Source: Gimesia aquarii
GTDB taxonomy: Bacteria; Planctomycetota; Planctomycetia; Planctomycetales; Planctomycetaceae
DNA length: 64,000 nucleotides
NCBI RefSeq assembly: GCF_007748195.1
Contig: NZ_CP037920.1
Coordinates: 3,039,501-3,103,500 of the forward strand
Direction of reading: 5' to 3'
In this document: positions 22,099 to 47,821 of the stretch, piece by piece
How the letters are laid out: each line of letters opens with the position of its first letter
How positions within the stretch are numbered: position 1 is the stretch's first letter
Translations under genes and position numbers: made by a program
The notes under the pieces: model-generated
What the model was told of the DNA's origin: nothing
Seen by the model: the letters and a program-made list of their open reading frames with translations, nothing else
The model's database searches: none

Positions 22099-23358
22099 AT
22101 GGCTGATCTGATTGCCCCTCATGGTGGATTGAGTGAACCTGTCTGTTGTACTGTTTCTGCTGAGGAAATTGATAGCTTCAAAGCCGAAGCCGCAACGCTT
22201 CCTAAAGTCCCTGTTTCTGCAGCTGATTTATCAACCGTCTACCGTTTGGGAGATGGTACATTGAGCCCCTTAACGGGACCAATGGGTGAAGAAGTTTATA
22301 ACCGTGTCCTCGATGAAGCGTGCATCGAAGTGAATGGTAAGCAGTATGCATGGACGATTCCTTTGGCTTTGCCTGTCACTTCGGAATTAGCAGGTACACT
22401 TTCCAGTGGGCAAAAAGTCGCGTTAACAAATCCCGCAGGGGATATCGTTGCCACTTTGGATATTACGGATGTCTATGAGTGGGACAAGCCCAAATATCTG
22501 AAGAGTGTATATCAGACCGAACGCACCGATCATCCAGGCGCGGCGATGGTCCTCGAAGGCGATGCTGACAACTCTCACCTCATTGGTGGAGAGATTCGCG
22601 TTTTACCACAACCCAAAAATAGTGCATTCGGAAAATATGTGCTCACGCCCCGTGAAGTACGTGCTCTGATTGCCGATAAAGGCTGGGATGCTGTAGTCGC
22701 ATTTCAAACTCGTAACCCTCTGCACCGTGCTCACGAATACGCTCTGGTTTACGGTTTGGAAACTTTGTTGCGACAAGGCAAAAACGCAGGTGCGGTTTTG
22801 AATCCACTCATCGGTGAAACCAAAAGTGACGATGTGAGTGCCGAAATTCGGATGGAGACTTATGAAAAACTGATCGAGAATCGGGAACTCGGGGACGGTG
22901 ACAGTGATCCTGAATTGTGGGGACCACGCGATGACAATCCTCCAGATCGGGTTTTATTGCTCGGCCTGGATATCAAAATGTTCTACGGCGGTCCTAAAGA
23001 AGCCGTCATGCATGGCATCTACCGCCAGAACATGGGATACACCAACATCGTCATTGGTCGTAAGCATGCCGATGCTCCCTACGCTGATGGAACCGCCATC
23101 TGGGGCGACTTCGATGCCCAGGAGATCTTCAATAATCTGGCGGGTGAATTGTTGATTGAACCTGTTAACGTTGGCTTTGCTGCCTTTTATGAATCATTGG
23201 GGCGTGTTGACCTGATGGAAAACCACTCGGAAGAAAAGCCAGTTTTCATTTCCGGAAAACAGGTGCGAGCGACCCTCCAGGAAGGCGAAATGGTCGACCC
23301 ACGCATCATGCGGGAAAGTACTTCAAAAATTCTATCTGAAGCAATGAAAGTATCCTGA
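22099..23358 (+). CDS. sat: sulfate adenylyltransferase (ATP sulfurylase)
   Basis: 419 residues from ATG 22099 ([15 protein letters not shown]), the usual family start; the open frame extends 17 codons upstream. It makes adenosine 5'-phosphosulfate from ATP and sulfate. An N-terminal PUA-like domain is followed by the nucleotide-binding [17 protein letters not shown] and [12 protein letters not shown]. Next come [20 protein letters not shown] and the GRKHADAPY region near the C-terminus. No fused APS kinase domain and no cysC, cysH or apr genes are present here, so APS use is encoded elsewhere. A strong terminator follows. Confidence 0.95.
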
Positions 23359-23387
23359 TAGCAGTTCAGGCGACTTATTAATCAACT

Positions 23388-23423
23388 AACGGTAGACAGA
23401 AGTCATTTCTGTCTGCCGTTTTT
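23388..23423 (+). terminator. terminator of sat
   Basis: Arms 23388-23401 and 23407-23420 pair over 14 positions with one mismatch and a 5-nt loop (GTCAT). The stem is followed by a T-run to 23423. It lies 30 bp past the sat stop, facing the convergent sulfatase gene. Confidence 0.85.
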
Positions 23424-42302: not shown

Positions 42303-43646
42303 ATGTTAAAACGGATTACTTTGCATAATTTTATGAGCCATTCCCATACCGTGATCGATCTGTCGGCTGGTTTGACCGTGCTGACGGGACCGAATAATTG
42401 CGGTAAGTCCGCCTTTGTGACTGCGCTGCAAATTCTTGCTGAGAATACGTCTGGCGATTTTATGGTCAGGCATGGTGAGAAAGAGTGTCGGGTGATCGTC
42501 GAAACGGATGATGAGCATACCATCGAATGGAAGCGCAAAAAGAAAACGGTCAGTTATTGCGTTGATGGTGAAGACTTTCATCGGTTAAGAAATGACGTTC
42601 CCGATAAACTGCGTTCACTACTAAGGCTCTCGAAAGTCAAGTCGGGTGATAGTGATCAGTTCGACGTCCATTTTGGCGAGCAAAAATCACCGATCTTTTT
42701 ATTAAATGACCGTGGCAGTCGGGCTGCCCGCTTCTTCGCGTCGTCTTCCGATGCCTCAGTTTTGATCGAGATGCAGAAATTACATCGCAGTAAGGTCAAG
42801 TCTGCACAACAGGAATTCCAGCGCCTGCAAACTGAGTCAAAGCAAATCAACGCAATTCTGGAAGCTCTGGCTCCGGTTCCCACTCTTGAATCGAAATTGG
42901 AAGCATTAGAAACGACATACGAGAGTTTGCAATCGGAGAACCAGCAGATTCAACGATTGGAAGCTTTGATTCAAGATTTAGAGGCTTCATCTCAGACTGT
43001 GACGAATTTGCGGAAAACAGTCACTGCGTTAAATGAGCTACCGGTAGAATTAACACAAAAAAATGAAAAACCATTAGAATCATTGATTCGGCGATCAGTC
43101 GCCGTAAAGCAGCAAGTGGAGCTGACCCATCTTAATGTATCGGTAATGGCAACGTTAAATGAACCTCCTGAATTGGAAGAGGTGACTGTTCTGGATTCAC
43201 TCATCTATGATATTGAGGTTCAACAACAGCGATCTGATCGAGACAATTTAACAGTAGAGTGTCTGAAGGCGTTAAGTGATCCTCCCCAGTTGGTTGAGTC
43301 AGGTCGATTACAGACGACAATTGAGAACTTGATATTGGCGGAGGAGAGGGTACGCGTCGATCAGATTGAATTTATGATTCTGGAAAAGTGCAGCTCTCCG
43401 CCAGAACTCGCAGATTTAGACAAAATCGAACAATTCTATCGGCAATGGGAAGAGGCGTCATCTCAATTTGACTCCAGGCAGCAGAACTACCATGTCTGTG
43501 AGAAGGAGTATGAACTGATTCGTGCTGAAATGGTGAATTGGGTGAAAGAAAATCCGACCTGTCCCACCTGTGGAGCAGAAATGGACCCGGAGCAGTTCAT
43601 CCAGTCAGCAGAGGTGGGACTGAAAGGGCACACACATGGAACATGA
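42303..43646 (+). CDS. N-terminal half of a split Rad50/SbcC-like ATPase, with CxxC end
   Basis: 447 residues. The start is a Rad50/RecF/SMC-type ATPase lobe: LKRITLHNFMSHSHTVIDL and Walker A GPNNCGKSA at residues 29-37, with a Q-loop-like Gln127 in FGEQKSPIF. A long coiled region (about 155-410) follows, interrupted by PP motifs at about 39-42-residue spacing. It ends in a zinc-hook-like CPTCG (Cys420, Cys423) 24 residues before the stop. No signature motif or Walker B is present, so it cannot be a complete ATPase. The missing half is encoded at 44908-45600. The stop lies 11 bp inside the next gene. Confidence 0.85.
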   Translation: MLKRITLHNFMSHSHTVIDLSAGLTVLTGPNNCGKSAFVTALQILAENTSGDFMVRHGEKECRVIVETDDEHTIEWKRKKKTVSYCVDGEDFHRLRNDVPDKLRSLLRLSKVKSGDSDQFDVHFGEQKSPIFLLNDRGSRAARFFASSSDASVLIEMQKLHRSKVKSAQQEFQRLQTESKQINAILEALAPVPTLESKLEALETTYESLQSENQQIQRLEALIQDLEASSQTVTNLRKTVTALNELPVELTQKNEKPLESLIRRSVAVKQQVELTHLNVSVMATLNEPPELEEVTVLDSLIYDIEVQQQRSDRDNLTVECLKALSDPPQLVESGRLQTTIENLILAEERVRVDQIEFMILEKCSSPPELADLDKIEQFYRQWEEASSQFDSRQQNYHVCEKEYELIRAEMVNWVKENPTCPTCGAEMDPEQFIQSAEVGLKGHTHGT

Positions 43647-44586
43647 GTCATACCGTGGTGTGCTGTTGATTGGCGACCCGCATATTGAAGGGCGAGTTCC
43701 CGGCTTTCGCAAAGATGACTATCCACAAGTCGTACTGGAGAAACTAAGCTGGTGTCTGAAAACAGCAAAAGAGCAAATGCTATTGCCTGTGATTTTGGGG
43801 GATCTGTTTCATGTACCTCGCGACAATCAAAACTGGTTGCTTTGTCAGCTAATGACACTTTTTGATCCCCCCGTCTATGGGATTTATGGAAATCATGACT
43901 GTCGAGAGAACCAGCTCACAGAACACGACACACTCAGTATCTTGGTAGAAGCGGGCAAGTATCGTCTTCTTTCAGAAGAAACTCCCTGGCAGGGGACCAT
44001 GCAGGGCCGCAAGGTGATCGTCGGGGGTACGTCCTGGGGGAAGAAGTTACCTAAATCTGTGGATTTCGAGAGTGAAGATCTTTCACCTTTGATCATTTGG
44101 GTCACGCATCACGATTTGATTGTGCCCGGTTATGAGGAGCAGGGGCATTTTAAGCCTTTTGAAATGGCTGGCGTCGATTATGTGATCAATGGTCACATTC
44201 ACCGTTCGCTGGCAGATGTGAAAAAAGGGCAGACCACCTGGGTCACACCCGGGAACATCATTCGCAGATCGCGCAGCGATGCTTCACGGGCTCATGTTCC
44301 CTCTGTACTGAAGCTGGAAGTGACAGACAATGGCTGGGAATGTACTGTAATCGAAGTACCACATCAGCCTTTTGATGAAGTTTTCTTTGAAGAAGTCATC
44401 GAAGAATCAGAATCGGGAGTGCCCTCTGCCTTTATTTCCGGTTTGGCGGAATTACAATCGAGAAGAACGGATACGGGGGCCGGTTTGCAGTTCTTCCTGG
44501 AAAAGAATCTGGAACAGTTCAATTCAACAGTTGCAGATGAGATACAAAAATTAGCAAGTGAGGTATCCAGTCATGTCAACGAGTAA
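43636..44586 (+). CDS. Mre11/SbcD-like metallophosphoesterase
   Basis: 316 residues. Calcineurin-like phosphoesterase motifs occur in order: GDPHIEG (13-19), GDLFH (55-59), GNHD (85-88), THHD, and GHIHR. These give the two-metal centre of Mre11/SbcD nucleases. The C-terminal ~90 residues are acidic and could form the Rad50-binding segment. It overlaps the preceding ATPase gene by 11 bp and the following coiled-coil gene by 14 bp, which strongly indicates coupled translation and a complex. Nuclease activity is inferred from the motifs. Confidence 0.88.
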   Translation: MEHESYRGVLLIGDPHIEGRVPGFRKDDYPQVVLEKLSWCLKTAKEQMLLPVILGDLFHVPRDNQNWLLCQLMTLFDPPVYGIYGNHDCRENQLTEHDTLSILVEAGKYRLLSEETPWQGTMQGRKVIVGGTSWGKKLPKSVDFESEDLSPLIIWVTHHDLIVPGYEEQGHFKPFEMAGVDYVINGHIHRSLADVKKGQTTWVTPGNIIRRSRSDASRAHVPSVLKLEVTDNGWECTVIEVPHQPFDEVFFEEVIEESESGVPSAFISGLAELQSRRTDTGAGLQFFLEKNLEQFNSTVADEIQKLASEVSSHVNE

Positions 44587-44878
44587 TCAAAGTCCTGTAC
44601 CTGATATCGAAACATTGACGGCACAGTTCCAAAAGTTAAACAAACGTAAAATCGAATCCGAGCGCGATTTGGTGAATGCTGAAAAACATCTGAATGATCT
44701 CAAACAGCAGGCGCAGGATGAATACGGGACTGATCATCTCGATGAATTGAAGGAAAAACTGGAACAGATAAAGACCGAAAATGAACGCAAACGGGCTGAG
44801 TACCATCAAACTCTTGAGCAAATCGAAACCGAATTAACCAAAATTGAAACCGAACATCAAGCGACTGATGCATCCTGA
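44573..44878 (+). CDS. small coiled-coil protein of the split Rad50/Mre11 set
   Basis: 101 residues from ATG 44573 (GAGG 9 nt upstream), overlapping the phosphoesterase gene by 14 bp. Nearly the whole protein is predicted helix with heptad-like charge alternation (LTAQFQKLNKRKIESERDLV; LEQIKTENERKRAEYHQTL). It has no Cys and no enzyme motif. It may pair with the coil of the split ATPase or tether the C-terminal lobe. No family is recognised. Confidence 0.75.
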   Translation: MSTSNQSPVPDIETLTAQFQKLNKRKIESERDLVNAEKHLNDLKQQAQDEYGTDHLDELKEKLEQIKTENERKRAEYHQTLEQIETELTKIETEHQATDAS

Positions 44879-44907
44879 CGATTTTCTATTGGAATCACTC
44901 TGAAGTT

Positions 44908-45600
44908 ATGACCGAAACATTTTCCAGTTCGGAATCCTCCAACTCCCAACAGGAGTTGCGTTCCCCCAAAGCATTGCAGCGTCGATGTTGGGAACTGGAT
45001 GCGGTCCGTAAACAGAAATTCAAAGAAGCAGCACAACTCTCCGATCAAATGCAGGAAACAGAGCAATACCTTGCGATTTCTGAGGAGGTGACTGAAGCCT
45101 TGGAAACGCTGAGTTCAAAACTCTTTGAGCAACAATTGGCTTTAATACAGGAAAAGCTGACGATTGCCCTCCAGGAAGTGTTGGAACAACCTTTGAAGCT
45201 AAACGCTGTTGCAGAATGGAAACGTAACGGAGCCAGTGTTGAATTTCAGATCGAGCGCGATGGCAACTTGGAAGACATTATCAGGGGGCAGGGGGGCTCG
45301 GTTGCGAATATCCTGTCGGTTGGTTTACGGATGTTTGCCTTAATGACACTGGATGAGTCAGAACACAGGCGGGTACTGGTGCTGGATGAGCAGGATTGCT
45401 GGCTTCGACCAGATCTAGTGCCCCGTCTGGTGAAAATTATTCACGAAGCAGGAGAGGCGCTCGGTTTTCAAATTATTATGATCAGTCACCATGATCCCAC
45501 GATGTTTGAACGTTACGCAGATTGCATTTACCAGTTTACCCCTTCTGCAGAGGGGGTTCAGGTTCAACGTATTGAAACCGATTGGCAAATGAGTGACTGA
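44908..45600 (+). CDS. C-terminal half of a split Rad50/SbcC-like ATPase
   Basis: 230 residues. Residues ~20-90 form a coiled coil. These are followed by a degenerate ABC signature (RGQGGSVANILSVGLRMFA, 126-144) and Walker B plus catalytic Glu (RVLVLDEQD, 155-163). The switch His is in MISHHDP (near 194). There is no Walker A. Together with the 42303-43646 product it would rebuild one complete Rad50-type head, or two heads in a 2+2 assembly. It starts 29 bp after the small coiled-coil gene. Confidence 0.85.
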   Translation: MTETFSSSESSNSQQELRSPKALQRRCWELDAVRKQKFKEAAQLSDQMQETEQYLAISEEVTEALETLSSKLFEQQLALIQEKLTIALQEVLEQPLKLNAVAEWKRNGASVEFQIERDGNLEDIIRGQGGSVANILSVGLRMFALMTLDESEHRRVLVLDEQDCWLRPDLVPRLVKIIHEAGEALGFQIIMISHHDPTMFERYADCIYQFTPSAEGVQVQRIETDWQMSD

Positions 45601-47179: not shown

Positions 47180-47821
47180 ATGCGTTTCTCTCAGACGTTT
47201 CAGGTAATGGTTTGCGGTATCGGGTTGGTATTGTTTGTGGGTTGTGCAGCGAAAGATGACACACGAACTTTTGATGCTAAGGATTCAGAGGCGTCTGCAG
47301 AAGCAGAGCACGATCATGGACATGATCATGGTCCCAACGGCGGTCATCTTCTGGAGGTAGGCGAAGAGCAATATCATGTCGAAGTGATGTTTGACAATGA
47401 AGGTCGAACATTGACAGCATTTATTCTGGGACCCGATGCCAAAACACCGTTTCCGATTGAAGTGGAAACCATCGATTTCGATATGGAAGTGGGTGACAAA
47501 GAGCATGAGATTCCACTCGCTGCCAAACCGTTAGAAGGTGAAAAAGAAGGCAAGTCATCACGCTTCGTCGCAGAAGGGAAAGCCATCCCGGATTCGATCA
47601 AAGCGGAATCCGATTTGAATGGTCACTTCCATCTGGATATTGGCGAAGATCACTTTCACGTTGATCTGAAGCATGGAGACCATGATCATGATGGACATGA
47701 CCACGATGATCACAAAGATCACGACCATGATAAAGAACACGCTGATGATAAAGACAAAAAAGCAGATGCTGAAAAAGAAGAAACCAAAAAGGATGAAGCA
47801 AAAGCAGACGATAAGAAATAA
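47180..47821 (+). CDS. His/Asp-rich lipoprotein, probable metal binding
   Basis: 213 residues. The signal ends in a lipobox (LFVGC, Cys22). The mature N-terminus carries HDHGHDHGPNGGHLLEVG. A central beta domain of about 100 residues follows (EVMFDNEGRTLTAFILGPDA; SDLNGHFHLDIGEDHFHVDL). The tail has a dense His-Asp run (DHDHDGHDHDDHKDHDHD), then Lys/Asp/Glu repeats. Such His clusters bind Zn, Ni or Cu. It has its own terminator. Function beyond metal binding is unknown. Confidence 0.82.
   Translation: MRFSQTFQVMVCGIGLVLFVGCAAKDDTRTFDAKDSEASAEAEHDHGHDHGPNGGHLLEVGEEQYHVEVMFDNEGRTLTAFILGPDAKTPFPIEVETIDFDMEVGDKEHEIPLAAKPLEGEKEGKSSRFVAEGKAIPDSIKAESDLNGHFHLDIGEDHFHVDLKHGDHDHDGHDHDDHKDHDHDKEHADDKDKKADAEKEETKKDEAKADDKK

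Follow-up and report, generated by a model that had tools for sequence, protein, structure and literature searches.

Mre11-Rad50 of Pyrococcus furiosus and SbcCD of Escherichia coli are the closest described systems to the locus reported here: in both, one ATPase chain carries an N-lobe with Walker A, a C-lobe with Walker B and a switch histidine, and two arms joined at a CxxC zinc hook, and the gene of an Mre11-type nuclease is adjacent. The ATPase of phage T4, gp46, is also a single chain. Its coil is, by description, shorter than the cellular ones, and gp46/gp47 likewise form a phage Rad50/Mre11 pair, acting in recombination-dependent replication (PMC3175470). Mre11/Rad50 fusion proteins, encoded by plasmids and viruses, are a reported rearrangement of this gene pair (Yoshida et al. 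2011, PMC3175470); among them is a fusion of a Bacillus phage (0305phi8-36) in which one SbcC ATPase segment was not observed.

Here we describe four adjacent genes, P1 to P4, of Gimesia aquarii, located in a 64,000-nt stretch of contig NZ_CP037920.1 (positions 3,039,501 to 3,103,500, forward strand; below, the window). The set shares with SbcCD and P. furiosus Mre11-Rad50 the Walker A N-lobe, the C-lobe with Walker B and switch histidine, the CxxC hook and the neighboring gene of an Mre11-type nuclease, and differs from them in that the ATPase is cut at the hook, the arm consists of 39-residue units and a further small coil gene is present. The fusions of PMC3175470 join the nuclease to the ATPase, whereas in the present sets it is the ATPase that is divided or permuted and no chain carries Mre11 and Rad50 domains together. 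We consider it likely that the set is a hook-split variant of Mre11-Rad50 (SbcCD) for DNA-end processing and tethering, working as one four-protein complex. A search of the open-access literature, including passages of PMC3175470, PMC12153180, PMC6375668 and PMC7326373, did not turn up any account of a Rad50 that is permuted or split at the hook, which is weak evidence of absence; the SMC proteins without CxxC treated in PMC12153180 are a different matter.

An ATPase divided directly after the hook

The genes of the set (Table 1) overlap by 11 bp between P1 and P2 and by 14 bp between P2 and P3, with a gap of 29 bp before P4, in agreement with the coordinates on which the original prediction of one coupled unit was based. 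P3 is counted here as 101 aa from an ATG, while the listing of open reading frames (ORFs) begins at a GTG and gives 106 aa. Relative to the nearest congener, the ratio of nonsynonymous to synonymous substitution rates (dN/dS) is 0.122 for P1, 0.085 for P2, 0.032 for P3 and 0.071 for P4. A promoter and terminator scan found sites no more numerous than in shuffled sequences.

Table 1. Features of the four-gene set, in positions of the window
Feature	Position	Strand	Basis or conservation
P1, Rad50/SbcC-like N-lobe, arm and C-terminal CxxC hook	42303..43646	+	447 aa; Pfam, PDB profile search
Walker A GPNNCGKS, P1 aa 29-36	42387..42410	+	G29, G34, K35, S36 in 44/44 rows
P1 arm, aa 151-419, 39-residue repeat units	42753..43559	+	self-similarity; AlphaFold2 helix starts 256, 295, 334, 372
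CPTC hook, P1 aa 420-423	43560..43571	+	C420, C423 in 44/44 rows
P2, Mre11/SbcD-like phosphoesterase	43636..44586	+	316 aa; Metallophos, PDB matches, invariant motif residues
P3, small coil, probably a helical hairpin around YGTD	44573..44878	+	101 aa; conserved family, hhalign
P4, Rad50 C-lobe preceded by a 73-residue helix	44908..45600	+	230 aa; AlphaFold2, Foldseek
Signature-like GQGGS, P4 aa 127-131	45286..45300	+	G127, G129, G130, S131 in 81/81 rows; Q128 in 75/81
Walker B LVLDE, P4 aa 157-161	45376..45390	+	L159, D160, E161 in 81/81 rows; L157 in 79/81, V158 in 70/81
Switch His, P4 aa 194-195 (in SHH 193-195)	45487..45492	+	H194, H195 in 81/81 rows

P1 exceeds the Pfam cut-off for AAA_15/AAA_23. 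In an alignment of the window protein with 43 of 50 fetched sequences (seven were left out), the residues of its Walker A motif, Q127 and the two cysteines of the hook are invariant in all 44 rows. Searched against the PDB, the profile of these rows matches the Rad50 N-lobe at 1.5e-8, followed by SMC6 heads at 1.7e-8, and its last part matches the Rad50 hook structures 6zff (3.8e-5) and 1l8d (7e-4). At the sequence level, P1 would thus correspond to a Rad50 N-lobe with Walker A, to which SMC heads score about equally, and to an arm ending in a putative CxxC zinc hook. Its AlphaFold2 model (mean predicted local distance difference test, pLDDT, 79; predicted template modeling score, pTM, 0.32) has an N-lobe followed by a chain of helices, and a fold search with this model lists Smc5/6, Rad50, SMC, RecF and RecN. 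The original prediction put Walker A and the CxxC on the first protein, a degenerate signature, Walker B and switch histidine on the fourth, and the break just after the CxxC; all three placements hold, as 24 residues follow the last cysteine of P1 and GQGGS, LVLDE and SHH lie in P4.

The C-lobe reading of P4 draws on its predicted fold. The AlphaFold2 model (pLDDT 86) consists of a helix at residues 20-92 and then a C-lobe, and the top three Foldseek matches are the P. furiosus Rad50 C-lobe chains 9a9j_B, 1ii8_B and 1f2u_B (E from 1e-8 to 1.1e-7). In the same PDB entries these are chains separate from the N-lobe (1f2u_A versus 1f2u_B). The two-chain heads 1f2u and 1ii8, which we take to be laboratory constructs, are a close structural parallel, unlike which the split here is natural and conserved. 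In addition to the residues of Table 1, S193 is invariant in all 81 rows and Q162 is present in 80. The consensus ABC signature is LSGG; P4 retains its Gly-Gly and has Gln at the Ser position (75/81 rows). P4 probably represents a Rad50 C-lobe with Walker B, switch histidine and an altered signature.

P2 exceeds the Pfam cut-off for Metallophos and contains the motifs GDPH, GDLF, GNHD, THH and GHIH, eight residues of which are invariant in 46/46 rows (the window protein and 45 of 61 fetched sequences). At E up to 0.01, its profile finds six PDB sequences, every one of them Mre11/SbcD, with a best value of 3.7e-4. A C-terminal stretch is also conserved, which may or may not correspond to the Mre11 helix-loop-helix that binds the root of the Rad50 coil. 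P2 is a candidate Mre11-type nuclease with conserved metal ligands; among its relatives on plasmids, 5 of 11 have lost part of the motif (see below). The NCBIfam equivalogs for SbcC and SbcD were found neither among all 25 matches of P1 nor among the matches of P2 at E up to 1.

The alignment of P3 suggests two helices flanking the conserved YGTD. By hhalign, P3 matches the coil protein of related phage sets at 6.6e-5, compared with 0.13 for an unrelated coil; a PDB profile search with P3 gave chance-like coil matches, the best at 0.024. No Pfam family passed its cut-off for P3 or P4.

Recurrence in bacterial genomes, megaplasmids and phages

The homologue search and gene-order mapping proposed with the original prediction show that further bacteria, and phages too, have all four parts. 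With tblastn, 21 of 26 relative loci have P1-P2-P3-P4 in this order. P1 identity declines to about 33%, and to 24% in a locus truncated at its contig end. The remaining loci comprise two that run off a contig end (L044, L045), one with P4 alone (L052) and two with weak matches only (L056, L058). When genome contigs were scanned with P4, 124 relatives emerged, and 80 of them were retained. Of these 80 loci, 60 have the four genes as separate ORFs in the same order and on the same strand, which supports a single gene cluster; in 10 the distance from P4 to a contig end is below 4.5 kb, and in 10 P4 stands alone with more room upstream. Three of the near-end loci (L125, L129 and L137) contain neither P3 nor P2 within their 2.5-3.3 kb and may also be P4 alone. 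Unsplit homologues in close relatives, named at the outset as a finding that would speak for a local frame break, were not seen: no ORF in the 80 loci matched P1 and P4 together, although exact family motifs were used and distant fused forms could escape them. Nor was there a single-chain Rad50 whose two antiparallel arms meet at the hook; the permuted fusion described below does not have this form either.

Judging from record titles, the hosts belong to Planctomycetota and to Desulfobacterales and their relatives (among isolates, Desulfacinum infernum); bin names, which may be wrong, add Poribacteria, Sumerlaeia, Parachlamydiaceae, Clostridiales, Bacillota and Spirochaetes. In 12 genomes with a lone or near-end P4, P2 is present elsewhere in 10, and these 10 short loci hold P1 in nine cases and P3 in seven. 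In a sample of 288 genomes of the phylum, for each of which at most the best 10 or 7 candidates were scored, the identical 10 genomes have a strong P4 (E < 1e-80) and a strong P2 (E < 1e-100). Among the 278 others, three have a weak P4 only and one a weak P2 only, while 274 are without a match to either protein at E up to 0.001.

A tblastn search of plasmids with P4 returned 21 records of 0.25-1.3 Mb, all from Proteobacteria. In each of the 11 loci that were read, P4 and P1 form one ORF in swapped order (C-lobe, N-lobe, arm), with Walker A in mid-chain and the CxxC 10-61 residues from the end; the assignment of the other 10 records is based on a tblastn match to the Bosea protein that covers both halves. 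This fusion argues that both halves function together, and since the lobes are joined at the head, the hook end remains open in these chains as well. A P2-like ORF follows the fused ORF in 11/11 loci and a P3-like ORF precedes it in 9/11; the two without it are both from Alteromonas, and in one of them a small upstream ORF scores 8.6 bits to P3. Retention of the P3-like ORF beside an already fused P4-P1 weakens the idea of P3 as a linker between two arms, and the possibility raised in the original prediction, that the arms join through the small coil, is not supported. The P2-like proteins that lack GNHD (L194, L196, L204, L205 and L206, on Pseudomonas and Alteromonas plasmids) suggest nuclease loss. 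We also note that a gene annotated as ligD, a non-homologous end-joining ligase, lies close to the permuted set on Bosea plasmid pANAM02 (L203:677-1678). A rooted P4 tree has weak support (35 for the cellular group, 68 for the plasmid group) and a single long-branch outgroup, and for these reasons was not used to order events.

In Bacillus phage vB_BboS-125, the N-half is gp32 (471 aa, with CPLC and a few residues at its end), the coil gp34 (78 aa) and the C-half gp35 (211 aa). A scan of viral contigs with gp35 gave 27 loci, many of them near-identical, and all 27 have N-half, coil and C-half followed downstream by a P2-like ORF (31-60 bits to the P2 profile), an order unlike the cellular one. 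A scan of viral contigs with cellular P4, and two with the permuted plasmid proteins, returned no relative. When phage and cellular profiles were compared, P1 matched at 1.5e-35, P2 at 3e-19, P4 at 3e-14 and P3 at the value given above. The set of vB_BboS-125 adjoins genes for a Holliday junction resolvase, a UvsW-like helicase, thymidylate synthase, primase and DNA polymerase. In a 485-kb record of an uncultured phage, ORFs resembling P1, P2 and P4 lie inside 9 kb together with a weak coil match. In a huge phage, the set is next to ORFs that on inspection look RuvC-, RecA- and thymidylate-synthase-like. The best PHROG matches are phrog_16465 'exonuclease' for P1 (1.1e-20) and phrog_15167 'ATPase' for P4 (2.9e-7), families whose descriptions do not present them as two halves of one ATPase, and the terms SbcC, ATPase and metallophosph- are absent from the text of the paper on the Bacillus phage (PMC6375668). 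Two observations concern annotation and content of these loci. The P2-like ORF of vB_BboS-125 (L061:8100-9215, NC_048735.1 about 22285-23400) has no coding-sequence feature of its own, and gp36 alone overlaps its start; and an AP2-domain gene lies between the N-half and coil genes (L061:6398-6970), with a relative in 7/27 viral loci.

An arm built of repeat units

The arm of the window P1 alone has a self-similarity peak at 39 residues (z 6.7). Across 47 cellular P1 arms the peaks relative to shuffled controls are at 39 (z 33.7) and 78 (z 27.9), and across 19 phage arms at 47 (z 27.0) and 94 (z 18.7), all of these z values being inflated by relatedness of the sequences. No clear 39-residue peak was found in five permuted plasmid arms (85 at z 4.9, 37 at z 3.2), and the single arm of the huge phage has a weak peak at 44 (z 3.9). 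The arms of E. coli SbcC, with a highest z of 2.6, have no such repeat.

Arm length, defined as the distance between the N-lobe motif (its end) and the hook, was compared over 67 P1 sequences, eight of them a second copy from the same contig; L054 (cut), L104 and L113 (no hook), and L094 and L136 (missed by the motif) were dropped. In 56 of the 67, the length falls within 3 residues of 191 + 39n (191, 230, 269, 308, 347, 386 and 503). The other 11 are 226, 316 (three), 340, 355 (five) and 381, of which 316 and 355 are also 39 apart, and in a scan of periods from 25 to 60 over the distinct lengths, 39 fits best. Units are present in odd as well as even number, and P3 length is uncorrelated with arm length (rho -0.06, 67 loci), which speaks against P3 as a partner of the entire P1 arm. 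Taken together, these two observations indicate that the P1 arm seemingly lacks a returning arm that pairs with it unit for unit. A correlation of arm length with a rough estimate of P4 pre-lobe length (rho -0.39, p 0.003, 55 loci) was given no weight. In one P1 relative without CxxC (L113:3356-5617), the arm is followed by an apparent membrane span and another domain, as if an anchor substituted for the hook.

Proposed assembly, rival readings and host role

From fusion, co-occurrence and fold, we infer a joint P1/P4 head. The proposed complex would have two heads, each made of a P1 N-lobe and a P4 C-lobe, which would bind ATP jointly and hold DNA, and two P2 nucleases at the base of the heads, with P2 as the cutting subunit. 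The CxxC at the end of the P1 arm may pair with that of a second P1 via zinc, within one complex or between two, tethering DNA ends. The short helix of P4 could pair with the first part of the P1 arm, with no returning arm of equal length. P3 is placed as a hairpin subunit of its own, which most likely would brace the junction of head and arm. In the cell, such a complex would probably process and tether stalled forks and DNA ends that are broken or blocked; in phages and plasmids its likely job is recombination-linked replication, the role of the T4 pair.

Several points weigh against this proposal. Among the seven P1 sequences outside the alignment, five have a CxxC and two (L104 and L113) have none; the pTM of 0.32 means that arm packing is not readable from the P1 model; and the replacement of the signature Ser by Gln means that ATP-driven pairing of heads may differ. 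The sequence match of P4 to the PDB is weak (best 0.0028, to an SMC), its probable Rad50 character comes from the predicted fold, and SMC heads match both P1 and P4 nearly equally. The match of P3 to the phage coil is modest (probability 64), and partial sets occur in the fetched stretches of two further phage records, Magritte having the C-half and a weak coil match (8.2e-5) and Tunturi_5 the C-half alone. Finally, GNHD is present in 6/11 plasmid P2-like ORFs and absent in 5/11, which argues that nuclease activity is not required everywhere.

Some of these points would suit a different machine, one for tethering or chromosome organization that works more like SMC or RecN, with P2 mainly structural. 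P1 and P4 also match SMC heads in fold searches, and the plasmid sets without GNHD keep the ATPase. We nevertheless regard this reading as unlikely, as the P2 motif residues are invariant in all 46 cellular rows, the hook part of P1 matches Rad50 hooks, and no SMC hinge domain is among the matches of P1 at E up to 1.

We think it still more improbable that the set is an anti-phage or anti-plasmid SMC-like defence system (of the Lamassu, Wadjet or methylation-associated kind) in which P1 and P4 would sense foreign DNA and P2 would cut it. SMC-like complexes do act in bacterial immunity, according to the abstract of PMC10586767, and at E up to 1 P1 matches 82 PADLOC models, the best being AriA (6e-14), while the best model for P4 is mad3 (3.5e-7). 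However, mad3 matches P1 as well (7.8e-8), the 25 of the 82 matches that are listed are scattered over unrelated systems with the common ATPase fold, P2 has none, and no single PADLOC system gave a specific multi-component match. In the genome, the set lies between trpF and a lactonase-like gene on one side and a POT transporter on the other, and five neighbors (these three and two others) are the same in 10/10 congeneric loci, which makes vertical inheritance inside the genus look likely. In 14 loci from other genera or more distant hosts, several of them short, all five neighbors were missed. Moreover, phages and megaplasmids themselves encode the set, in one annotated phage inside a replication-recombination block. 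With generic PADLOC matches and housekeeping-like neighbors conserved within the genus, defence is without specific support and was set aside: of the original proposal of a split, multi-chain Rad50-Mre11-type set for repair or defence, the split multi-chain set stands and the defence role is not supported. Window positions 47180-47821, downstream of the POT transporter, encode a small, possibly metal-binding protein with a long tail rich in His and Asp, for which there is a match in 10/10 congeneric loci.

A local gene break or a decaying, functionless Rad50 operon, which the single chain of the usual Rad50 might bring to mind, can be dismissed, given the same split in 21/26 tblastn loci and 60/80 scanned loci, a dN/dS of 0.03-0.12 and invariant motif residues.

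The hook-split Mre11-Rad50 reading also bears on the host. The G. aquarii genome has nine other AAA_23 places; three were read, as an SMC with a hinge, a presumably YhaN-like protein and a presumably Wadjet-like protein beside DUF3375 (the last two named from domain make-up), and the Wadjet-like protein has the sole SbcC_Walker_B match of the genome. No SbcD passes its cut-off in this genome, the best TIGR00619 match being 26.1 bits, elsewhere, against a cut-off of 77.65. Over 150 genomes of the family, SbcD (TIGR00619) passes the cut-off in 0/25 with a strong P4 and in 17/125 others; with an expected overlap under 3 and related genomes, this is only suggestive. The set may be the main Mre11-Rad50 of its planctomycete hosts.

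A broader proposal, to which we give about even credence, is that these sets form a separate Rad50 lineage that is open at the hook. Its returning arm would have been lost, the remaining arm would consist of self-standing 39-residue units (47 in sets like that of the Bacillus phage) whose copy number sets reach, the hairpin protein would be a fixed fourth subunit, and the directly joined lobes of the megaplasmid chains would be a natural circular permutation. How the long arms and hook of Rad50 signal to the heads is an open question in the field. If the proposal is true, the Rad50 machine can work without a single chain closing its coiled-coil loop. The natural variants, with a hook-cut arm, a swapped single chain or arms differing by whole 39-residue units, could then be compared directly as to whether a closed double arm is needed, what effect arm length has and what the extra coil replaces.

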